NCBI RefSeq assembly: GCF_015999335.1
Contig: NZ_JAEACP010000004.1
Coordinates: 124,001 to 188,000 of the forward strand
Direction of reading: 5' to 3'
From: Tabrizicola soli
Lineage (GTDB): Bacteria; Pseudomonadota; Alphaproteobacteria; Rhodobacterales; Rhodobacteraceae
Length of the DNA: 64,000 bases
The notes beneath the pieces are model-generated. The model searched no databases. It was not told the origin of the DNA and saw only the letters and a program-made list of their open reading frames with translations. This document shows, in pieces, positions 7,000 through 57,935 of this stretch. Made by a program: the position numbers and the translations under genes. The stretch's first letter is position 1. Each line of letters starts with the position of its first letter.

Positions 7000-8095
7000 C
7001 CTTGGGTCATTGTCGGCGGCCTTGCAGGCGCATGGGCGCGTGGCCCGGGTGGTGATCGCGGGCGTGGAGGGGTCGTCTCCGCGCGAGGTCGGGGCGTCGA
7101 TGCTGGTCTGGGATCGGGGCCAGTCGGGGACCATCGGCGGCGGGGCGCTGGAGTTCGAGGCGGCGGCGAAGGCGCGCGGGATGCTGGCGTCGAGCCCGTT
7201 GTCCTGCGCGGGAAGTGGCGAGGCGCTTTCGGCGACCGGGGGCGAGCGTCCGATGGCGAGCCCCCCCATCCCATCCCTCCCACATGGAGGGGGGAGGGGG
7301 TCTGTTGCGCCTCTCATCGAGCGCGGCGCTGCCATGGAGGCGCCTCCCTCCCCCCGCGCGGGGGAGGGATGGGGTGGGGGGGCCCGCATCGAGCGGGTCG
7401 CGCTCGGCCCGAACCTTGGCCAATGCTGCGGCGGGGCGGTGGTGCTGTGGACCGAGATCTTCGACACGCCTCCGGAAGCGGTGGCGGGCGTCGTCCTGCG
7501 CGGGCCGGGGCAGATGCCGCTGGCCGTGAAGCGCATCCTGGCGGCGGCGCGGGGGCAGGGCCTGCGGCCCGCGCCCGGCCTGGTTGGCGGCTGGCTGGTG
7601 GAGCCGGTGATGGAGGCGGAGCGGCAGGTCTGGATCTGGGGCGCGGGGCATGTGGGGCGGGCCTTGGTCAGCGTGCTGGCGCCCCTGCCGGGGATTGCGG
7701 TGACCTGGGTAGATGTGAGCGCCGAGCGGTTTCCGGATATGGTGCCGGAGGGGGTGACGGTGATTCCGGCCGGTGATCCGGCTCTGGTGGCGGATCACGC
7801 CCCGCCGGACGCGGAGCATCTGGTGCTGACGTTTTCCCATGCACTGGATCTGGAGCTGTGCCATCGGTTGCTGGGCCGGGGATTCCGGGGGCTGGGGCTG
7901 ATCGGCTCGGCGACGAAATGGGGGCGGTTCCGGTCGCGGCTGAAGGCGCTGGGGCATGAGGCGCGGGCGGTGGGGCGGATCCGCTGTCCGATCGGCGATC
8001 CGGCGCTGGGCAAGCATCCGCAGGCGATTGCGATTGGCGTGGTGGCGGAGATGCTCCGCGCGCCCAAGGTGGCGGTGGGGGAGAAGCGGGCATGA
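6992..8095 (+). CDS. xdhC: XdhC-type molybdenum cofactor insertion/sulfuration protein, with large in-frame insertion
   Basis: XdhC binds the molybdenum cofactor and delivers it, sulfurated, into XdhB; it is not part of the finished enzyme. This one has 367 residues, against about 300 for the family. The N-terminal XdhC/CoxI block has GSSPREVGASMLVW and GTIGGGALEFEA; then LGPNLGQCCGG carries the cofactor-binding Cys pair; the C-terminal Rossmann domain has WIWGAGHVGRALV. About 60 extra residues (roughly 68-130) separate the first two blocks, of which 90-130 are encoded by a family B element. Start is GTG 6992, overlapping xdhB by eight bases; the stop overlaps the next gene as ATGA. Confidence 0.93.
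   Translation: MFDLGSLSAALQAHGRVARVVIAGVEGSSPREVGASMLVWDRGQSGTIGGGALEFEAAAKARGMLASSPLSCAGSGEALSATGGERPMASPPIPSLPHGGGRGSVAPLIERGAAMEAPPSPRAGEGWGGGARIERVALGPNLGQCCGGAVVLWTEIFDTPPEAVAGVVLRGPGQMPLAVKRILAAARGQGLRPAPGLVGGWLVEPVMEAERQVWIWGAGHVGRALVSVLAPLPGIAVTWVDVSAERFPDMVPEGVTVIPAGDPALVADHAPPDAEHLVLTFSHALDLELCHRLLGRGFRGLGLIGSATKWGRFRSRLKALGHEARAVGRIRCPIGDPALGKHPQAIAIGVVAEMLRAPKVAVGEKRA
7261..7382. repeat. Family B terminal-inverted-repeat element inside xdhC
   Basis: A 122-bp element bounded by a C-rich 21-mer (7261-7281) and its G-rich inverted copy (7362-7382); the two arms match at 20 of 21 positions. Each end also folds locally: CCCTCCC/GGAGGG near 7275-7300 and CCTCCCTCCCCC/GGGGGAGGG near 7343-7368. 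It is read through in frame as residues of about 90-130 of XdhC. Confidence 0.88.
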
Positions 8096-9635: not shown

Positions 9636-9788
9636 TGCCCCCCACCCCCGGCCCCTCCCCACGGAGGGGGAGGGGAGGTGCGGGTTGCGGCGTCAGGTGC
9701 GAACGCGCGGCGGCGCGACTGCCGAGCCGCCGGAATGGGGGGCCAGCCCCCCAAGCCCCCCGGGATATTCGTGGACAGAAAATGGGGG
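9636..9788. repeat. Composite of repeat elements (families B and C) between transporter genes
   Basis: The only wide gap (176 bases) in an otherwise coupled operon. 9636-9677 is half of a family B element, a C-rich arm CCCCTCCCCAC followed by GGAGGGGGAGGGG. Near 9737-9765 come C/G-rich complementary runs GGGGGGCC/GGCCCCCC-like, then a family C tail beginning GGGATATTCGTGG. A frame from 9608 (MRAELVTGR) overlaps the previous gene but is not permease-like. Confidence 0.65.
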
Positions 9789-47576: not shown

Positions 47577-47936
47577 TCATGCCTGCGCCTCCGCAATCGC
47601 CGCCGTCGCCGTCCCGTCCGCCGAGACCGCCCGAGGCCCCCGAAGCCGTGCCCCCCGCCCCGTCGCCGCCAGCGCCGCCGCCTCGGCCACCGAGCCGGTG
47701 CCGTAAAGCGCCTCCACCCGGTCCGAGCGGGTCAGGGTCGGCTGCCCCTGCAGCGCCTCGGGCTCCAGCGCCAGGATGGGCAGGTTCAGCGCCTGGGCCA
47801 GCGGCCCGAGCCCCCCGGCCTTGGCGGAAAGCGTCGCCAGATGCGTCACGCCTTCTGGCCCCCCTGCCCGCGCAAGCGCGTCCCGCAGCGCGGCGAGACT
47901 CGCGCCCGAACGGAAGCCGAACCCCGCGACGATCAT
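47577..47936 (-). CDS. cobE: Cobalamin biosynthesis protein CobE (CbiG C-terminal-like)
   Basis: A 119-residue protein related to the C-terminal domain of CbiG; its exact step in the aerobic pathway is unsettled. VAGFGFRSGASLAALRDAL is the characteristic N-terminus, SVAEAAALAATGRGARLRGP the C-terminal block. ATG 47936 overlaps the cobL stop at 47933 by four bases, placing it in the cobL-E-M-B-A run. Confidence 0.9.
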   Translation of the reverse strand: MIVAGFGFRSGASLAALRDALARAGGPEGVTHLATLSAKAGGLGPLAQALNLPILALEPEALQGQPTLTRSDRVEALYGTGSVAEAAALAATGRGARLRGPRAVSADGTATAAIAEAQA

Positions 47937-49102
47937 CGGGTGACACTCCATTGCAGGATCGGCAGCGCCGATTTCCAGCCGCGCTTGCGGCCGATGGGGC
48001 CGGGTTCGGCCAATTCGATCTTCAGGAGCTGGCCGCCGTGGCGGGCGGACCAGTCGAGCACGAGCGCCTCGGTTTCCAGCGTCACGGCATTCATCACCAG
48101 CCGGGTGCCGGGCGGAATCAGGTCCCAGAGCGCCAGCAGCAGCGCCCCGGAGGCGCCGCCGCCGATGAAGACGGCATCGGGGATGGGCAGGCCGGAAAGG
48201 CCCTCGGGCGCGCGGGCCTCGGTCAGGCGGTGGCGGTGGGCCAGGCCGAAGGCCTCGACATTGCCGCGCGCGCGGGCGGCGCGGGTGGGGTCGGCTTCCA
48301 GTGCCTCGACCCGCGCTCCACCGGCCAGCAGCCACTCGATGCCGATGGAACCGGAACCCGCGCCGATGTCCCAGAGCAGCTCGCCCGCTCGGGGCGCAAG
48401 GGCCGAGAGGGTCAGCGCGCGGACGGGCCGCTTGGTGATCTGGCCGTCGTGCCGGAACAGCGCGTCCGGCAGGCCGCCGGCCCGCGGCAGCCCGGGATCG
48501 GTGGCCTCGATGGCCGCCGAGACCGGGGCCCCGATCGCATCGGCGGGCAGGCCATGGGTGATCCGCTCCTGCGGCCCGCCCAGGCGTTCCAGCACGGTCA
48601 GCCTGGCGTTGGGGTGGCCGTTGTCGGCCAGCCAGCGGGCCAGATCCGCCACCGCCGCCCCGTCGCGCAGGGTGCAGACGGCGCGCACCCCGCGCGCCAG
48701 GACCGGGCGGAGCCGGGCGAAGGGCGCGGCGTGCAGGCCGAGGGTCAGCACCTCCTCCAGCCGCCAGCCGAGGCGGTTCGCCGCCAGCTGGAAGGTCGAA
48801 GGCCCCGGATGCGAGACCCATTCGCCCGGCAGAAGACCGGCCATCAGGCTGCCTCCCGCGCCGAACCAGAACGGGTCGCCCGAGGCGAGGACGACGGTCG
48901 GCCTGCCCCGGTGGGCAAGGACGGGAGTGGCGTCGAAGGGGACGGGCCAGGGCTGGCCCCGGACGCCTGCGTCGACCAGGGACAGATGGCGGGGACCGCC
49001 GAAGATCGTTTCGGCCGTCGCAAGCGCGGCGCGACTTGCGGGCGACAGGCCCTCCGGTCCATCTTCGCCCAGACCGATGATCGTCAGCCAGGGATCAGCC
49101 AT
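47933..49102 (-). CDS. cobL: Precorrin-6B C5,15-methyltransferase (decarboxylating)
   Basis: Bifunctional enzyme of 389 residues converting precorrin-6B to precorrin-8. The N-terminal CbiE-like methyltransferase has WLTIIGLGEDGPEGL and LASGDPFWFGAGGSLM; the C-terminal CbiT-like methyltransferase/decarboxylase has LWDIGAGSGSIGIEWLLAGG and FIGGGASGALLLAL. The start at ATG 49102 shares the tetranucleotide CATG with the divergent cobK start at 49101, so there is no intergenic space. An upstream ATG at 49147 would overlap cobK even more. Confidence 0.94.
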   Translation of the reverse strand: MADPWLTIIGLGEDGPEGLSPASRAALATAETIFGGPRHLSLVDAGVRGQPWPVPFDATPVLAHRGRPTVVLASGDPFWFGAGGSLMAGLLPGEWVSHPGPSTFQLAANRLGWRLEEVLTLGLHAAPFARLRPVLARGVRAVCTLRDGAAVADLARWLADNGHPNARLTVLERLGGPQERITHGLPADAIGAPVSAAIEATDPGLPRAGGLPDALFRHDGQITKRPVRALTLSALAPRAGELLWDIGAGSGSIGIEWLLAGGARVEALEADPTRAARARGNVEAFGLAHRHRLTEARAPEGLSGLPIPDAVFIGGGASGALLLALWDLIPPGTRLVMNAVTLETEALVLDWSARHGGQLLKIELAEPGPIGRKRGWKSALPILQWSVTR

Positions 49103-49838: not shown

Positions 49839-49906
49839 GCTCGTCGAGCACTTCGTGCACTCCTCGCGGGGCGCCTCCGAGGAGGACACGAAGTGAACGA
49901 CGAGGG
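49839..49906. repeat. Family A palindromic element, copy 4
   Basis: GCTCGTCGAGCACTTCGTGC, ACTCCTCG, then CCGAGGAGGACACGAAGTGA and ACGACGAGGG. Compared with copies 1-3, the right arm reads CACGAAGTG, matching its own left arm CACTTCGTG: a compensatory change that keeps the stem. It lies between convergent cobK and cobJ. Confidence 0.88.
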
Positions 49907-52013: not shown

Positions 52014-53283
52014 CGGAGGCTTTCAGGTGCTCAAGGATCGCCAGCGGGGACAAGCCCGTCAGGCTGGGAGTGTCATGGGCGGTGCCGTTGCGGATCAGGT
52101 CATGGCCCTGGCCGGTGGCGGTGAGGGTCAGGTCGGCCGGCGCGGGATGGGCGCAGCCCTTGGCGCAGCCGGAGAGGTGGAGGGTCCGGCCTTCGGGCAG
52201 GTGCGGGGCGAGCTGCCGGGCGAGGTTGCGGGTGTCGCCCAGGGCCTGAGGACAGCCGGGGGCCCCGGTGCAGGCCGTGACGCGGAGGACGGGGTCGGCC
52301 GGGTCGGTGATCAGGCCGGGGATGGAAGGAAGGGTCGTCGCGCCGACGAGGAGGAGCATGCGCCAGGGCGTCGGGCGGATTTCGTGGCCGAGGGCGGCGA
52401 GTTGCCGAAGGATCCCGGCGGAGATCTGGCCGAAGGCGAGGGCGACGAGGGCGCCGTCCTCATGGAGGCCGGGGTGCGGTTGCGGCAGCGGATCGGCCGG
52501 GGCGAGGGTGCAGCCGGGGGGAATGGCGCCCTTGGCGACCAGGGCAGCCATGCGGCCACGGCCGTTGGTGATGCCGCCCTGGGCGACGAACCATCCGGCC
52601 ATCGCGATGGCGTCCTCTGCGAGGTCGGTGACGGGCCGGCCGAGCGGGTGGCCCTCGGGGCGGAGGATCAGGCACCCGTCCGCGGCCCGTTCGACGCGGA
52701 TGTCGACCGAGGCTTGCGTCAGGACCGGACGCGGGCCGGTGTCGAGGGCGAAGCCGAACTTGCCGGGGAGGCGGGGCATCCGTGCGAGAGCAGCGGTCAG
52801 GGTGGCGGCGAGGGCGTCGGTGTCGTCGTACGCCTGGCTGGCCGGGTGCCCCCCTCCCCCATCCCCTCCCCACGGGGGGGAGGGGAGGCGTGGGGCATCG
52901 GCGTTGCGCGGGACGGGCGGCGTGTTCGGCTCCTTTCCCCCTGTGTGTGGGAGGGATGGGGTGGTGGGGCCGGTCCGGAACGGGGTGACGATCAGGTTCC
53001 GCAGCGACTCCGTTTCGATGTCGGGGTCGATGAGGCCCTGGGCGCGGAGGTCCTCGATGAGGCGGGGGTGGCTGGCCTCGGTCACGCCGCGCAGTTGCAG
53101 GTTGGCGCGGGCGGAGAGGTCGATGATGCCGTTGCCGTGGCTCTGGGCGGCTTGCGCGATGGCCTCGGCCTGCGCGGGGGTGAGGCGACCCATTGGCGGG
53201 CGGATGCGGGTGACGAGGCCGTCGCCGGACAGCATCGGGCGCAGGGCTCCGGGGCACCAGCCCTTGATGTCCCAGGCGGTCAT
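51997..53283 (-). CDS. cobG: Precorrin-3B synthase (sirohaem/[4Fe-4S] monooxygenase) with in-frame repeat insertion
   Basis: Oxygen-dependent hydroxylation and lactone formation on precorrin-3A, the step that defines the aerobic route. 428 residues, related to sulfite/nitrite reductases. WCPGALRPMLSGDGLVTRIR starts it, LSARANLQLRGV is the NirA-type block, and VTACTGAPGCPQALGDTRNL with LHLSGCAKGCAHP gives the four Cys that hold the cluster next to sirohaem. Residues about 103-150, rich in Pro and Gly and starting TGPTTPSLPHTGG, are encoded by a family B repeat (52848-52970) placed between RNLIVTPF and DDTDALAATL. The insertion is in frame and all cluster ligands remain. Confidence 0.93.
   Translation of the reverse strand: MTAWDIKGWCPGALRPMLSGDGLVTRIRPPMGRLTPAQAEAIAQAAQSHGNGIIDLSARANLQLRGVTEASHPRLIEDLRAQGLIDPDIETESLRNLIVTPFRTGPTTPSLPHTGGKEPNTPPVPRNADAPRLPSPPWGGDGGGGHPASQAYDDTDALAATLTAALARMPRLPGKFGFALDTGPRPVLTQASVDIRVERAADGCLILRPEGHPLGRPVTDLAEDAIAMAGWFVAQGGITNGRGRMAALVAKGAIPPGCTLAPADPLPQPHPGLHEDGALVALAFGQISAGILRQLAALGHEIRPTPWRMLLLVGATTLPSIPGLITDPADPVLRVTACTGAPGCPQALGDTRNLARQLAPHLPEGRTLHLSGCAKGCAHPAPADLTLTATGQGHDLIRNGTAHDTPSLTGLSPLAILEHLKASDAPHL
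52848..52970. repeat. Family B terminal-inverted-repeat element inside cobG
   Basis: 123 bp. Left end GCCCCCCTCCCCCATCCCCT (52848-52867) and right end AGGGATGGGGTGGTGGGGC (52952-52970) are inverted with a few mismatches. The left end agrees with that of the cobN copy at 25 of the first 26 bases. It has no stop codon in the cobG frame. Confidence 0.87.
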
Positions 53284-53334
53284 GCGGCGGTTCTCCCGGT
53301 TGGGGCGGTTATGATGATGGGCGCTTCGCGCAAG

Positions 53335-53402
53335 CCTTTTGTCTCGCCTCTGGCCTGCGGCCAACCGGCTCGGCGAGAATGAGTATTTGGGCCAAGAGGA
53401 AG
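53335..53402. repeat. Intergenic hairpin and GAGTATTT motif between cobG and cobN
   Basis: CTGGCCTGCGGCCAA-type hairpin at 53350-53364 is followed by GAGTATTTGGGCCAAGAGGA (53381-53400), which differs at one base from the motif at 12977-12996. The gap of 127 bases is otherwise featureless. Confidence 0.55.
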
Positions 53403-53410
53403 CCGCAGGG

Positions 53411-56400
53411 TCATGCCACACCGTCCAGTGTCGCGGCGATGGAGTTGCGGCGGGTGAGCCAGAGGCCGGCGTCGCGGAGGCGGCGGAAGAGATCTTCCAT
53501 CGCGGCGAGGGCGGCGGGATTCTCGCGGGCGAGGAAGTCGCGGACGTCGTCGCGGCCGAGCGTGGCCTCGTGGTAGAGGTCGAAAAGGTGCGGCGGCACG
53601 ACCTGCGCGAGATGCGCGAAGGCGGCCATGTGGTCGAGGGTCGCGGCGATCTCGGCTCCGCCGCGGAAGCCGTGGTTCATCATGCCCCGCGCCCAGTCGG
53701 GATTGGCGGCGCGGGCACGGACGACGCGGGCGATCTCCTCGGTAAGCGTCCGGGCATGGGGGCTCTCCGGCCTTGTGGCGTCGAGGTGGTAGAGCGTGGG
53801 TCTGGCGCCGCCCAGTTTGGCAACGGCGGCGGCGAACCCGGCTTCGTGCGCGGCGTAGTCGGCGGCGATCAGGACGTCGGTCTCGGGCAGGTCCTGGGCG
53901 TGGACGAAGGCTTGGGCGGAGAGGACGCGTTGTTCCAGGGCGGCGCGGGCCTCGGTGGACTGGCCATCGGGGCCGATGGCCCAGGCGGAGGCATCGAGCC
54001 AGGCTTCGCCCGCCGCCTGGCGCGCTTCCTCGGTGAATGTGTCGGCGGCAGTCCCCATGCCAAGGCCATAAAGGCCGGGACGGGGGCCGAAGACGCGGGC
54101 CTGACGGGAAATGTAGGGGTTGTCCTCGGGGGCTTCGTCCCGGGTTGAAAGGGCTTCGGCCCCGGCTTCGAACAGCTGCGCAAGGCCGGGGAAGACGTCG
54201 CGGAAGAGGCCGGAGACGCGGAGGGTGACGTCGATCCTGGGCCGGCCAAGGAGGGCAAGCGGCAGGATCTCGACGCCCGAGACGCGGGCGGAGCCGTCGT
54301 CCCATTTCGGCGCGAGGCCGGCAAGGTGGAGCGCCATGGCGAATTCCTCGCCGGCGGTGCGCATGGTGGCGCTGCCCCAGAGGTCGACCACCAGCCCGCG
54401 CGGATAGTCGCCGTGGTCCTGCAGATGGCGGCGGATCAGTTCCTCGGCCAGCTTCACCCCCTGCGCATGGGCATTGCGCGAGGGCACGGCGCGGGGATCG
54501 ACGGAGAAGAGGTTGCGGCCGGTGGGCAGCACGTCGGAGCGGCCCCGGTTGGGGGATCCCGCAGGGCCGGGGGCGACCTTCCGGCCGTCCAGGGCGGCAA
54601 GGAGGCCGGCGCGTTCACCTTCTCCTGCCCCGAAGATGTGCAGGCCCTGGCCGAACTGGCTTTCCTTCAGGTCGCAGACGAAGCGGTCGATCCGGGTGAT
54701 CGCCTCGGCCGGGGTGGCATCGGCGGCGAGGCCGAGGTCGGCGGCGACGCCGGAGGCGCTGGCCTCGTCGCGGATGCTGGCGATCAGCCGGGTGCGCCGG
54801 GCGGGGTCGAGGCCGTCGGCGGTGGAATATTCGTCGAGCAGGCGTTCGAGGCGCTGCAACTCGGGTGGGACCTCGCTGGCCTGCATCGGCGGCGGCAAGT
54901 GGCCGAGGGTGACGGCGCCGATCCGGCGCTTGGCCTGGGCGGCCTCGCCGGGATCGTTGACGATGAAGGGGTAGATCACCGGCAGGGGGCCGACCAGCGC
55001 CTCGGGCCAGCAGGTTTCCGACAGGGCGACGGATTTGCCCGGCAGCCATTCCAGCGTGCCATGGGCGCCCATGTGGATCAGCGCATGGAGGCGCTGGGAG
55101 CGGAGCCAGAGGTAGAAGGCGACATAGGCGTGGCGCGGGGTGCGGGAGAGGTCGTGGTAGTCGCTGTCCCGTGTCGCAACCTCGCCGCGCTCGGGTTGCA
55201 GGGCGATGAGGGCGTTGCCGCGCCGGGTGGCGAGGAAGTGGAAGGCGCCGTCCTTGACCGAAGGGTCGGAGGCCGGCTCACCCCAGGCCTGCGCGAGGTC
55301 CTGGCGCAGGGGTTCCGGCAGGGTGTCCAGCGCCGTGAGGTAGTCGCAGAGCGGCCAGGCGAGGGTTTCGGTCAGCGCTGCGGGCAGCGCGGTGCCTTCG
55401 GTGACATGGTAGCCCTCGGCGGCGAGGGTGATCATGAGCGCCTCGGTCGAGGCCAGCGCGTCAAGACCGACGGCATGCGCGATCTGGTGCGCCCGGCCGG
55501 GATAGGTGGAAAGAATGACGGCCAGTTGCCGCTCGGCCGCCGGGGTGGCGGCGAGGCGGTGCCAGTGCTTCACGCGATCGACCACGGCTTTGATGCGGCC
55601 GGGGTCGGAACGATGGGCAAAGCGGGAAAACTGCAGCTCGGGGTGGCGCCTGCCGGGAGACTTGTGGCTGATCAGCCCGGCAAGAAGGCGGCCGTCGACC
55701 TCGGGCAGGACGACATGCATGGCAAGGTCGGCGGGCGAGAGGCCACGGTCGGAGTCCAGCCAGTCGCGGCGGCGGGCGGTGGAGAGGGCGGCCTGGAACA
55801 CCGGGCAGGCGGCGGCGTCGAAGGGGGTGGAGCCGTCGTCGGCGCGGGCCGAGAAGGCGGTGGCGTTGATGATCGCCACCGGCGGATTCCGCACCAGGTG
55901 GGCCGAGAGCCAGTCGGCGACGCCGGGGGCCTTGAGGCTGGGGGCGAAGGCGCCATAGGCCGCGAAGCCCTCGGCGCGCAGCGCGTGGATCAGCGCGTCG
56001 ACCGGGTCGGTGTCGCCCGAGGTGAGGTAGCTGCGGTAGAAGGTGACAAGAACCGGGCCTTCGGGTTGCGGCCCCCCGCCCCCATCCCCTCCCCACAGAA
56101 GGGGATGGGGGGAGGCGTTTGGATGGGTCTGCGGCGTCGGATAGGCTGTAAGGTCGGAGGCTTGCCGCCTCCCCTCCCCCTCTGTGGGGAGGGGATGGGG
56201 GTGGGGGGCATCCGGCGCGGGGATCACGCCCTGGTCGGGGTCGTAGAAGCCCATCTGCGGCACGGTCTTGTCGCCTGCGACGGGCGCCACGTAGATCCCC
56301 GCCGCCAGCGCCAGTTGCGCCAGCGCGGCATGGGCGGCGACCGCACCCCCCTCGTCACACAGCGCCTGCAACCGGCGCAGGGTGGAAACCGGAAGCGTGG

Positions 56401-56794
56401 AGAGCTGGTCGAGGCGCGGGTCGGGGCGGCCGTCGGCGGGAAGGATCGCGAGCGCGGTGCCCTGGCGGCGGGCGAGGTCCTGCAGCGTGGCGAGGCCGTA
56501 GGGCCAATAGGCCTCGCCCCCGATCAGGCGGACGAGGATGGCTTTCGCGTCGGAGAGGGTGCGTTCGACATAGGTGTCGACCGAGATCGGGTGCTTCAGC
56601 GCGACGATGTTGGCGAGACGCAAGGTAGGATGGGTGACACCACCCGCCCTGCGCAGGCGCTCATACCCCGCCGCAAAGGCGCCGAGGTCGCTGTCGGACA
56701 GGGAAAGCACCACCAGCTCGGCCGGGTCCTGGGCCAGGTCGAACGGCGTTTCGGTTTCCTCGAGCCCATGGCTTTCGCGGAAGACGACGTGCAT
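53411..56794 (-). CDS. cobN: Cobaltochelatase subunit CobN with in-frame repeat insertion
   Basis: Large porphyrinoid-binding subunit of the ATP-dependent chelatase that inserts cobalt into hydrogenobyrinate a,c-diamide, together with CobS and CobT (not in the window). 1,127 residues. Family blocks include SVDTYVERTLSDAKAILVRL with GGEAYWPYGL, VLVTFYRSYLTSGDTDPVDA, ALIHMGAHGTLEWLPGKSVA with the conserved His, and NPDWARGMMNHGFRGGAEIA. Residues about 195-246 are Pro/Gly/His-rich and come from the family B element at 56071-56209, between FYDPDQGVIPAPD and GPVLVTFYRS, two blocks normally close together. ATG 56794 starts MHVVFRES. It is 106 bases after cobW in the riboswitch-2 operon. Confidence 0.95.
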   Translation of the reverse strand: MHVVFRESHGLEETETPFDLAQDPAELVVLSLSDSDLGAFAAGYERLRRAGGVTHPTLRLANIVALKHPISVDTYVERTLSDAKAILVRLIGGEAYWPYGLATLQDLARRQGTALAILPADGRPDPRLDQLSTLPVSTLRRLQALCDEGGAVAAHAALAQLALAAGIYVAPVAGDKTVPQMGFYDPDQGVIPAPDAPHPHPLPTEGEGRRQASDLTAYPTPQTHPNASPHPLLWGGDGGGGPQPEGPVLVTFYRSYLTSGDTDPVDALIHALRAEGFAAYGAFAPSLKAPGVADWLSAHLVRNPPVAIINATAFSARADDGSTPFDAAACPVFQAALSTARRRDWLDSDRGLSPADLAMHVVLPEVDGRLLAGLISHKSPGRRHPELQFSRFAHRSDPGRIKAVVDRVKHWHRLAATPAAERQLAVILSTYPGRAHQIAHAVGLDALASTEALMITLAAEGYHVTEGTALPAALTETLAWPLCDYLTALDTLPEPLRQDLAQAWGEPASDPSVKDGAFHFLATRRGNALIALQPERGEVATRDSDYHDLSRTPRHAYVAFYLWLRSQRLHALIHMGAHGTLEWLPGKSVALSETCWPEALVGPLPVIYPFIVNDPGEAAQAKRRIGAVTLGHLPPPMQASEVPPELQRLERLLDEYSTADGLDPARRTRLIASIRDEASASGVAADLGLAADATPAEAITRIDRFVCDLKESQFGQGLHIFGAGEGERAGLLAALDGRKVAPGPAGSPNRGRSDVLPTGRNLFSVDPRAVPSRNAHAQGVKLAEELIRRHLQDHGDYPRGLVVDLWGSATMRTAGEEFAMALHLAGLAPKWDDGSARVSGVEILPLALLGRPRIDVTLRVSGLFRDVFPGLAQLFEAGAEALSTRDEAPEDNPYISRQARVFGPRPGLYGLGMGTAADTFTEEARQAAGEAWLDASAWAIGPDGQSTEARAALEQRVLSAQAFVHAQDLPETDVLIAADYAAHEAGFAAAVAKLGGARPTLYHLDATRPESPHARTLTEEIARVVRARAANPDWARGMMNHGFRGGAEIAATLDHMAAFAHLAQVVPPHLFDLYHEATLGRDDVRDFLARENPAALAAMEDLFRRLRDAGLWLTRRNSIAATLDGVA
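56071..56209. repeat. Family B terminal-inverted-repeat element inside cobN
   Basis: The best-preserved copy, 139 bp. The 29-base left end (56071-56099) and right end (56181-56209) are inverted copies matching at 28 of 29 positions. The G-rich strand of each end has four runs of 4-6 G separated by 1-2 bases (GGGGAGGGGATGGGGG), a G-quadruplex pattern. Inner bases 56100-56180 are not conserved with other copies. Confidence 0.92.
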
Positions 56795-56816
56795 GGGTCA
56801 CATCCTCCGGAAGAAT

Positions 56817-56884
56817 GCATCCCCCCACCCCTGCCTTCCCCCACGGCGGGGGGAGGGAGGCGCCAGGCGGCCAGGGGTGGGGAA
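56817..56884. repeat. Short family B-like element between cobN and cobW
   Basis: ATCCCCCCACCCCTGCC at the left and GGCCAGGGGTGGGGA at the right are inverted, around an inner hairpin CTTCCCCC/GGGGGGAGGG. About 68 bp, in the 106-base cobW-cobN gap. Confidence 0.8.
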
Positions 56885-56900
56885 AAGGCGGATCACGGTT

Positions 56901-57935
56901 TCAGGCCCCCAGGACCTTGCGAATCGCGGCTTCGTCAATGTCGTCATGCTCGGCGATCACCACCAGCTGCGAACGGCGCGGCGCGGCACCCCAGGGCTTG
57001 TCGAACTGCATCCGCACCCGGTCGCCGACGGCCTGGACCAGCAGGCGCAGGGGCTTGCCCGCGACCGCGACATGGCCCTTGACCCGCAGGACCCGCTGCT
57101 CGCGCGCAAGGCGCTGGATGGCGGCGGCCAGGGTCTCGGGGTCGGCGATCTCCGGCAGGTCGATGACCGCGGAGTCGAAGTCGTCATGCTCGTGGTCGTC
57201 GGCCCCGTCGTGGTGCGAGGGGCGCGCGGCGAGGTCGTCCTCGGCGGCGGCGGCAAGGCCCAGGACGACGCGCGGGTCGATGACGCCTTCGGTCATCGGC
57301 AGCATCGGGACCGGCCGGTTCAGCTCCGCCGCGATGACTTCCCTGGCGGCGGCGAGGCCCGCGTCCCCGGCGAGGTCGGCCTTGGAGAGAAGGATCAGGT
57401 CGGCGCAGAGGATCTGGTCCTCGAAGACCTCCGACAGCGGGGTTTCGTGGTCGAGGCTGGGATCGGCGGCGCGTTGAGCCTCGACCGCATCGACGTCGGG
57501 GGCGAAGCGGCCGGCGGCCACCGCCTCGGCATCGGCGAGCGCGATGACGCCGTCGACGGTGATGCGGCTGCGGATCGCGGGCCAGTCGAAGGCTTTCAGG
57601 AGCGGCTTCGGCAGGGCCAGGCCCGAAGTCTCGATCAGGATGTGGTCGGGGCGCTGGGGCATGGCCATCAGGCTTTCGATGGTCGGGATGAAATCATCGG
57701 CGACGGTGCAGCAGATGCAGCCGTTGGCAAGCTCGACGATGTTCTCCTCGGGGCAGTTCTCGTCGGCGCAGGATTTCAGGATGTCGCCGTCGACGCCCAC
57801 GGTGCCGAACTCGTTGACCAGGATCGCAAGGCGCTTGCCCTGGGGGTTCTGCATCAGGTGGCGGATCAGCGTGGTCTTTCCCGATCCGAGGAAGCCGGTG
57901 ATCACGGTCACGGGGATTTTGGTCAGGTCGGTCAT
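56901..57935 (-). CDS. cobW: CobW GTPase, metal chaperone of cobalamin synthesis
   Basis: G3E-family GTPase thought to deliver Co2+ to the CobNST chelatase. 344 residues: Walker A ITGFLGSGKTTLIRHLMQ, the metal site NGCICCTVADD (CxCC), ILIETSGLALPKPLL, and LSKADL as the guanine motif. A His/Asp-rich linker, SHHDGADDHEHDDFD (about residue 240), and the CobW C-terminal domain follow. ATG 57935 overlaps the DUF1636 stop. Confidence 0.95.
   Translation of the reverse strand: MTDLTKIPVTVITGFLGSGKTTLIRHLMQNPQGKRLAILVNEFGTVGVDGDILKSCADENCPEENIVELANGCICCTVADDFIPTIESLMAMPQRPDHILIETSGLALPKPLLKAFDWPAIRSRITVDGVIALADAEAVAAGRFAPDVDAVEAQRAADPSLDHETPLSEVFEDQILCADLILLSKADLAGDAGLAAAREVIAAELNRPVPMLPMTEGVIDPRVVLGLAAAAEDDLAARPSHHDGADDHEHDDFDSAVIDLPEIADPETLAAAIQRLAREQRVLRVKGHVAVAGKPLRLLVQAVGDRVRMQFDKPWGAAPRRSQLVVIAEHDDIDEAAIRKVLGA

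Follow-up and report, generated by a model that had tools for sequence, protein, structure and literature searches.

The cobN gene of Tabrizicola soli very probably carries a REP-like palindromic element, here called family B, that was inserted into a linker of the CobN protein and is read in frame, at a site that would then have been remodelled. The repeating entity is a hairpin unit of about 43 bp, found alone or in inverted pairs, and not the 139-bp element seen in cobN. The window is the whole stretch of 64,000 nucleotides that was analysed, and it covers positions 124001-188000 of contig C34 of the source genome (G000), a 4.68-Mb draft in 57 contigs.

The insert in cobN

The features at and around the insert are as follows.

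53411..56794, minus strand: cobN, cobaltochelatase subunit, 1127 aa, a single open frame with the insert at about residues 196-242
56071..56209, minus strand: in-frame palindromic insert in cobN, an inverted pair of B units with G-rich tails outward
56071..56113, minus strand: B unit 1, type B1, the right (downstream) arm on the coding strand, loop TTCTGT
56114..56165, no strand: 52-bp spacer between the two cobN B units
56166..56209, plus strand: B unit 2, type B1, the left (upstream) arm on the coding strand, loop CTCTGT
56820..56861, minus strand: lone degenerate B unit in the interval from the cobN start to the following gene
56901-57935: next gene beyond the cobN start, cobW-like by reading alone

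The cobN product matches Pfam CobN-Mg_chel with E = 6.7e-240. The original prediction placed a 139-bp palindromic segment at 56071-56209, with arms matching at 28 of 29 positions, and both arm comparison and folding bear this out. The outer 29 bases of the arms match at 28, and the inverted repeat as a whole (56071-56116 against 56164-56209) runs for 46 nt with 89% complementarity. Folded as RNA, the insert reaches -107.8 kcal/mol (z -8.4), and folded as DNA it has z -9.2, with 0 of 200 shuffles as stable in either case. By ORF reading, the insert is stop-free across its whole length, and it adds 48 residues compared with the 13-aa linker of congeners, with all later CobN sequence in frame, in keeping with the predicted translation as about 50 residues. 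The proposed anatomy is the part that does not stand, because the insert is real but consists of REP-like units of about 43 bp in an inverted pair rather than one 139-bp element with terminal repeats. Parts of the 52-bp spacer recur, as judged by eye, in the cobN inserts of G004, G010, G016, and G026. Rfam at gathering score gives 0 matches in 52500-57000.

A blastn search of the host genome with the 139 bp finds one full-length copy, the one in cobN. Related copies, whose absence was to have told against the prediction, do exist, but it is the unit of about 43 bp that repeats. A second full-length match (C34:27-165, 94%) was rejected and read as an assembly artefact of the cobN locus, because 26 bp of the flank seen at cobN accompany it and poly-G junk adjoins it at a contig end. 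The contig start as a whole (G000:C34:1-165) is made of that 26-bp flank plus the element, followed by poly-G/C junk. It is extremely unlikely that the cobN insert is itself an assembly artefact of a region difficult for short reads: a contig that begins with cobN flank, element, and poly-G does imply that the assembly broke at the hairpin, and single bases inside the cobN hairpin could be wrong in the assembly, but congeners whose genomes were assembled separately have related inserts at this site, among them Rhodobacter sp. YIM 73028 and Tabrizicola flagellatus.

A dispersed family of hairpin units

A covariance model of the B unit returns 58 matches at E up to 0.1, with 150 of 3124 candidates scored. 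Three matches were removed, 2 from the contig-start artefact (C34:27-69 and C34:123-165) and one that is an opposite-strand overlap of the cobG unit (C34:176858-176896), leaving 55 units at 38 sites in the source genome. An exact pattern for the hairpin has 19 matches, versus 0 for the reversed control. The suggestion that we are dealing with a repeated event and not with chance low complexity is upheld as to the repetition, although what is repeated is the unit and not the whole element.

The consensus of the unit is CGCCTCCCCTCCCCC..., with no GTAG or CGTC head tag beside the stem, and the stem sets C/T against G/A, with 9 pairs in model R1. There are 2 subtypes, B1 and B2, of different stem length; the typing rule miscalls B2 units with a AGGGGGGG tail. 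Units form 13 inverted pairs, 10 with heads inward and 3 in the other inverted orientation, and B1 is combined with B2 in 6 of the 13, a count affected by the miscalling of some B2 units. The spacer is 36-38 bp in 7 of the 10 heads-inward pairs, as a raw count with no null model, and 52 bp in the cobN pair. The largest cluster among the 55 units is a group of 6 within 0.8 kb (G000:C9:71775-72576).

A classical miniature inverted-repeat element (MITE), flanked by terminal inverted repeats and mobilised by an insertion-sequence transposase, would have the inverted-repeat anatomy and could have the 139-bp length of the cobN insert. We nevertheless regard it as very unlikely, given that what recurs is one hairpin unit, in many cases unpaired, that the spacers of the pairs are unlike one another by eye, and that no target-site duplication is apparent in the flanks viewed, which were looked at unsystematically. 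A RAYT was considered as the B mobiliser and rejected, since PF01797 (Y1_Tnp/RAYT), the sole transposase family searched, is over its cut-off in 0 of 32 congeneric genomes, with weak matches in 2 of them at about 21 bits against a cut-off of 23; the same search is positive in 5 of 14 control genomes.

B units occur in 31 of the 32 congeneric genomes, with 1-97 matches each at E up to 0.001, a threshold at which the source genome counts 51, including the 2 artefact matches. Under stricter filters, they are found in 9 of 61 genomes spread over the family, the source genome included. By analogy, this patchy distribution across the family is REP-like. A member of another genus of the family, G089, has 39 B units, and no B unit is found at E 0.001 in 52 of the 60 other genomes of the family.

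The window also holds, at 49840-49904, a terminator-like 27-nt inverted repeat (85%) of another sequence type than B, between the convergent 3' ends of ORFs named by reading as cobK-like and cobJ-like.

Copies read in frame inside genes

Three further B sites in the window are these.

52848..52970, minus strand: B pair within the cobG reading frame, giving a linker of 51 aa versus 3 aa in 14 of 22 genomes, the source genome included in the 22
7260..7383, plus strand: B pair within the xdhC reading frame, giving a linker of 82 aa versus 21 aa in 9 of 30 genomes, the source genome included in the 30
9637..9679, minus strand: single B1 unit, outside genes by the ORF/codon screen

The cobG and xdhC pairs, which had been predicted as structures like the one in cobN, indeed lie in open frames of Pfam-recognised proteins, with the Pfam domain after the cobG insert scoring below cut-off. 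At least 8 of the 38 B sites are of this kind, in genes for CobN, CobG, XdhC, an HrpB-like helicase, and Kdo-transferase-like, AMP-binding, Amidase_2, and tRNA-synt_1c (GluQ-like) proteins. Pfam support for the Amidase_2 and Kdo-transferase proteins extends to one side of the insert, with codon scores as the basis for the other. Intragenic copies were identified by a codon/ORF screen with no gene caller, which puts the other 30 sites outside genes. The figure of 8 is a minimum, because that screen missed one gene, xdhC, which was found by reading.

Across the 8 genes, the inserts are read in several different frames. Neither strand of 53 of the 55 units has a TAA, TAG, or TGA triplet. With all six frames thus open, a B unit can be read in any of them, and in-frame survival of insertions becomes understandable. 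This need not be an adaptation, as the lack of stops follows from the G/C make-up. Six open frames are not a requirement either, since C23:224977, one of the 2 units that do have a stop triplet, lies inside a gene.

Linker lengths in other genomes show what these inserts add. CobG was read in 22 genomes (25 loci tried, 3 unmatched), with a linker of 3 aa in 14, a B-containing linker of 51 aa in 3, one of 36 aa with a second palindrome family, A, in 2, and 7-19 aa in 3. XdhC has 21-30 aa in 15 of 30 genomes, 33-36 in 8, 48 in one, 59-62 in 5, and 82 in the source genome, lengths that roughly match the expectation for none, one, or two B units. In the GluQ-like protein, the loop is 19 aa in 15 of 17 genomes, 44 in the source genome, and 48 with a B-type peptide in G002. 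Another 13 of the 30 GluQ-like loci tried were unmatched, and those of G004, G006, G025, and G027 may hold inserts, with tblastn matches spanning the stretch.

The CobN linker in relatives

The CobN linker is measured between the blocks ...GFYDP and VLVTFYRS. It was read in 26 of the set of 32 congeneric genomes, the source genome included; left out were G005, in which a contig end truncates CobN, and G002, G007, G014, G017, and G021, which have distant CobN-like matches only. Eleven of the 26 have a linker of 13 aa, and in the other 15 it is expanded, to 29-88 aa. Three of the expanded linkers hold one B unit (29-33 aa, by DNA reading) and 8 hold 2 (55-88 aa, decayed in one, G031), while family A is found alone in 2 (40 and 52 aa) and precedes a B right arm in 2 more (74 and 77 aa). 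Family A translates in CobN as ...TRPGLDPGP...GPGSSPGR...

Of 592 named loci, we took the best 80. Reading by regular expression left 42 of 110 loci unmatched, 38 of them among the 80 named, and all 80 named loci were then measured by tblastn. The linker is 11-19 aa in 75 of these best 80, and the 5 longer ones have 21, 27, 29, 64, and 88 aa. The first named CobN among the matches listed is that of Tabrizicola flagellatus, 84% identical on its best segment.

With the short linker in 75 of the best 80 named loci and in 11 of the 26 congeners, the segment 56071-56209 is, on this comparative evidence, an insertion between blocks that are normally adjacent, as the original prediction had it, and not an ancestral loop, the finding that was to have told against it. 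The competing idea, that an ancestral and perhaps functional loop was lost in most lineages, could draw on the expanded linker in 15 of 26 congeneric genomes; we think it most improbable, since apart from the prevalence of short linkers in named loci, the 3 longest named linkers (29, 64, and 88 aa) exactly match the linkers of congeners G024, G026, and G016, those of 29 and 64 aa belonging to Tabrizicola flagellatus (L059) and Rhodobacter sp. YIM 73028 (L061), and the added stretches come from one or other of two unrelated families, A and B, of which B matches dispersed repeats.

The CobN tree, built without G018, G025, and G030 (sequences too short), is weakly resolved, with 6 of 24 inner branches starred, and filled and empty linkers are intermingled in it: a starred branch pairs G016 (88 aa) with G011 (13 aa). 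Because of this weak and mixed tree, one old insertion with many losses or exchanges is indistinguishable from several insertions.

There are other CobN-like sequences as well. A fragment at G000:C37:11113-11490 is 29% like CobN and has 3 in-frame stops, and many congeners have a second CobN-like gene, open and about 31-33% identical.

Position of the insert in the protein

The AlphaFold model of CobN, made with 40 CobN sequences (that of the source genome plus 39 from the 80 named loci), has a mean pLDDT of 79.5 and a pTM of 0.63. Residues 198-242 have pLDDT under 50 and no secondary structure, and the insert is flanked by a strand at 189-191 and a strand at 247-253, with folded domains on both sides. 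The low pLDDT may partly reflect how few alignment rows have the insert. Alignment to the solved CobN 9uk9 breaks at the insert, into query 1-167 and 244-291, the second piece being weak (i-Evalue 0.0038). From the modeled disorder together with the break in the 9uk9 alignment, the insert is predicted to lie in a disordered interdomain linker. From the intact frame and the conserved blocks, we infer that the chelatase tolerates the insert, and the position in a disordered linker fits such tolerance, without proving it.

An alternative is that the element is kept for a function, in that the very stable hairpin in the cobN mRNA slows translation at the domain border or serves as an RNase III site, or the longer linker alters chelatase assembly. 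The predicted position between two domains, the -107.8 kcal/mol fold, and the presence of some form in 15 of 26 congeneric genomes would suit this. Congeners without the element, with half of it, or with another palindrome do not, nor does G031, which retains extra residues despite a decayed hairpin, and on balance we hold a retained function to be very unlikely.

Probable remodelling of the linker

Family A, a palindrome unrelated to B, occupies the same linker of cobN and of cobG in other species. In the source genome, it has 0 matches at up to 3 mismatches, in a search run without a positive control.

A likely exchange of one family for the other is found in the sister genomes G020 and G001, where the CobN linker holds B in G020 versus A in G001. 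Outside the linker, their cobN genes are 91-100% identical in 150-bp windows. The 59 bases just before the linker are identical, and to the right of it, identity is 90.7% over the first 150 bp and 98.0% over the following 450. A short imported recombination tract, with either lineage as the recipient, best explains this pattern of identity.

No clean empty B site was found in about 60 kb compared between G020 and G001, and the sole presence/absence site there is a 54-bp family A pair directly upstream of cobN in G001:C22 (L234), which G020 lacks at an otherwise similar site; deletion via a shared CGGG and insertion are both possible. Two candidates for an empty B site were rejected, the B unit at G001rc 34352, which is present in both genomes, and the cluster at 47883-48070, where the 2 genomes differ wholesale.

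The arms of the B pair differ among genomes too. In G004, G008, and G018, the cobN insert has B1 on the left (loop CTCTGT) and B2 on the right, and the G020 insert is likewise B1 plus B2, with loop CTCGGT. The source genome has a right arm of type B1, whose loop is TTCTGT, and this arm resembles the left one. The loops CTCTGT and TTCTGT are confined to the 2 cobN units among the 49 of 55 units with a parsed loop; one of the 6 unparsed, the degenerate C1:353049, reads CCTCTGT. One arm being a copy of the other is the outcome expected of a template switch in which a quasipalindrome is perfected. With several relatives having unlike arms, and our own right arm resembling the left, the near-perfect arms of the source cobN are probably a derived state that reflects later palindrome correction, and not the inserted state. 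G006 has a B1 right arm with loop CTCTGT, which weakens the story of a single arm-rewriting event, and the B1/B1 pair might be older.

Relation to known repeats

REP sequences and REPINs are described as short imperfect palindromes, often in inverted doublets folding into one long hairpin, with hundreds of copies per genome (PMC3116915). B units are similar in being short, palindromic, dispersed, and mostly extragenic (30 of 38 sites by the screen), and in forming inverted doublets with a common spacer that are able to fold as one hairpin. They differ in having no GTAG or CGTC head and a long G-rich tail, in the lack of a RAYT over cut-off in the genus, and in having about 50 copies versus the hundreds per genome of REPs.

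As Di Nocera et al. 2013 (PMC3733652) describe them, CGTC REPs are mostly alphaproteobacterial, apparently have no dedicated transposase, and form predominantly HH dimers; they have a CGTC tag, an 8-9-bp stem starting with AT, and a CCA tail. Intragenic REPs occur, and different REPs are found at about the same recB site in 2 Xanthomonas species. Compared by eye with that description, family B is alike in being alphaproteobacterial, with no transposase detected, heads-inward pairs, and intragenic copies, and it is unlike in lacking the CGTC tag, the AT-starting stem, and the CCA tail. In family A, CGTC adjoins the palindrome, and by the same description that family may be nearer to CGTC REPs.

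Rickettsia palindromic elements are described as palindromes of about 150 bp that lie in frame in unrelated protein genes (PMC10969869). The B palindromes read in frame in at least 8 unrelated genes resemble them in this respect, and they differ in that most B sites are extragenic by our screen.

Given that transposase-free CGTC REPs and intragenic REPs are reported in PMC3733652, the general phenomenon is already known. The present data add a family without the tag, B, a series of alleles at individual linkers, the presence of another palindrome family in two of the genes, and the likely exchange tract. No description of the B family in Rhodobacterales was found in open-licence PMC papers.

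Proposed history and implications

The history that we favor is that a non-autonomous B pair, heads inward and G-rich tails outward, would have entered the CobN linker, between the first two folded domains, in an ancestor within the genus. B insertions in flexible linkers whose length is a multiple of three would persist as extra Pro/Gly/His residues. Later changes at the linker may have included unit loss and replacement by family A, alleles may have passed between species by homologous recombination, and in the source genome, the right arm may have been rewritten as a copy of the left via a quasipalindrome template switch. The recombination, the template switching, and the direction of these changes are what we infer from the alleles.

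A wider reading, which we put forward tentatively and at rather less than even chances, is that certain interdomain linkers of core enzymes in the genus, those of CobN, CobG, and XdhC, are exchangeable docking sites where selfish palindromes of families A and B land, replace each other, hybridise, spread by short recombination tracts, and are rewritten by template switching. Occupation of the same codons by A and B has so far been seen in CobN and CobG.

With no RAYT detectable beside the B repeats, the question of which agent moves alphaproteobacterial REPs becomes sharper, and sequenced strains such as Tabrizicola flagellatus SYSU G03088 are among the carriers. The comparative series of empty, half, full, other-family, and hybrid linkers shows small palindromes entering and changing proteins outside Rickettsia, and the CobN linkers are natural insertion-tolerance experiments in cobaltochelatase. 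If the docking-site reading is true, hairpin DNA would be a running source of new protein linkers.
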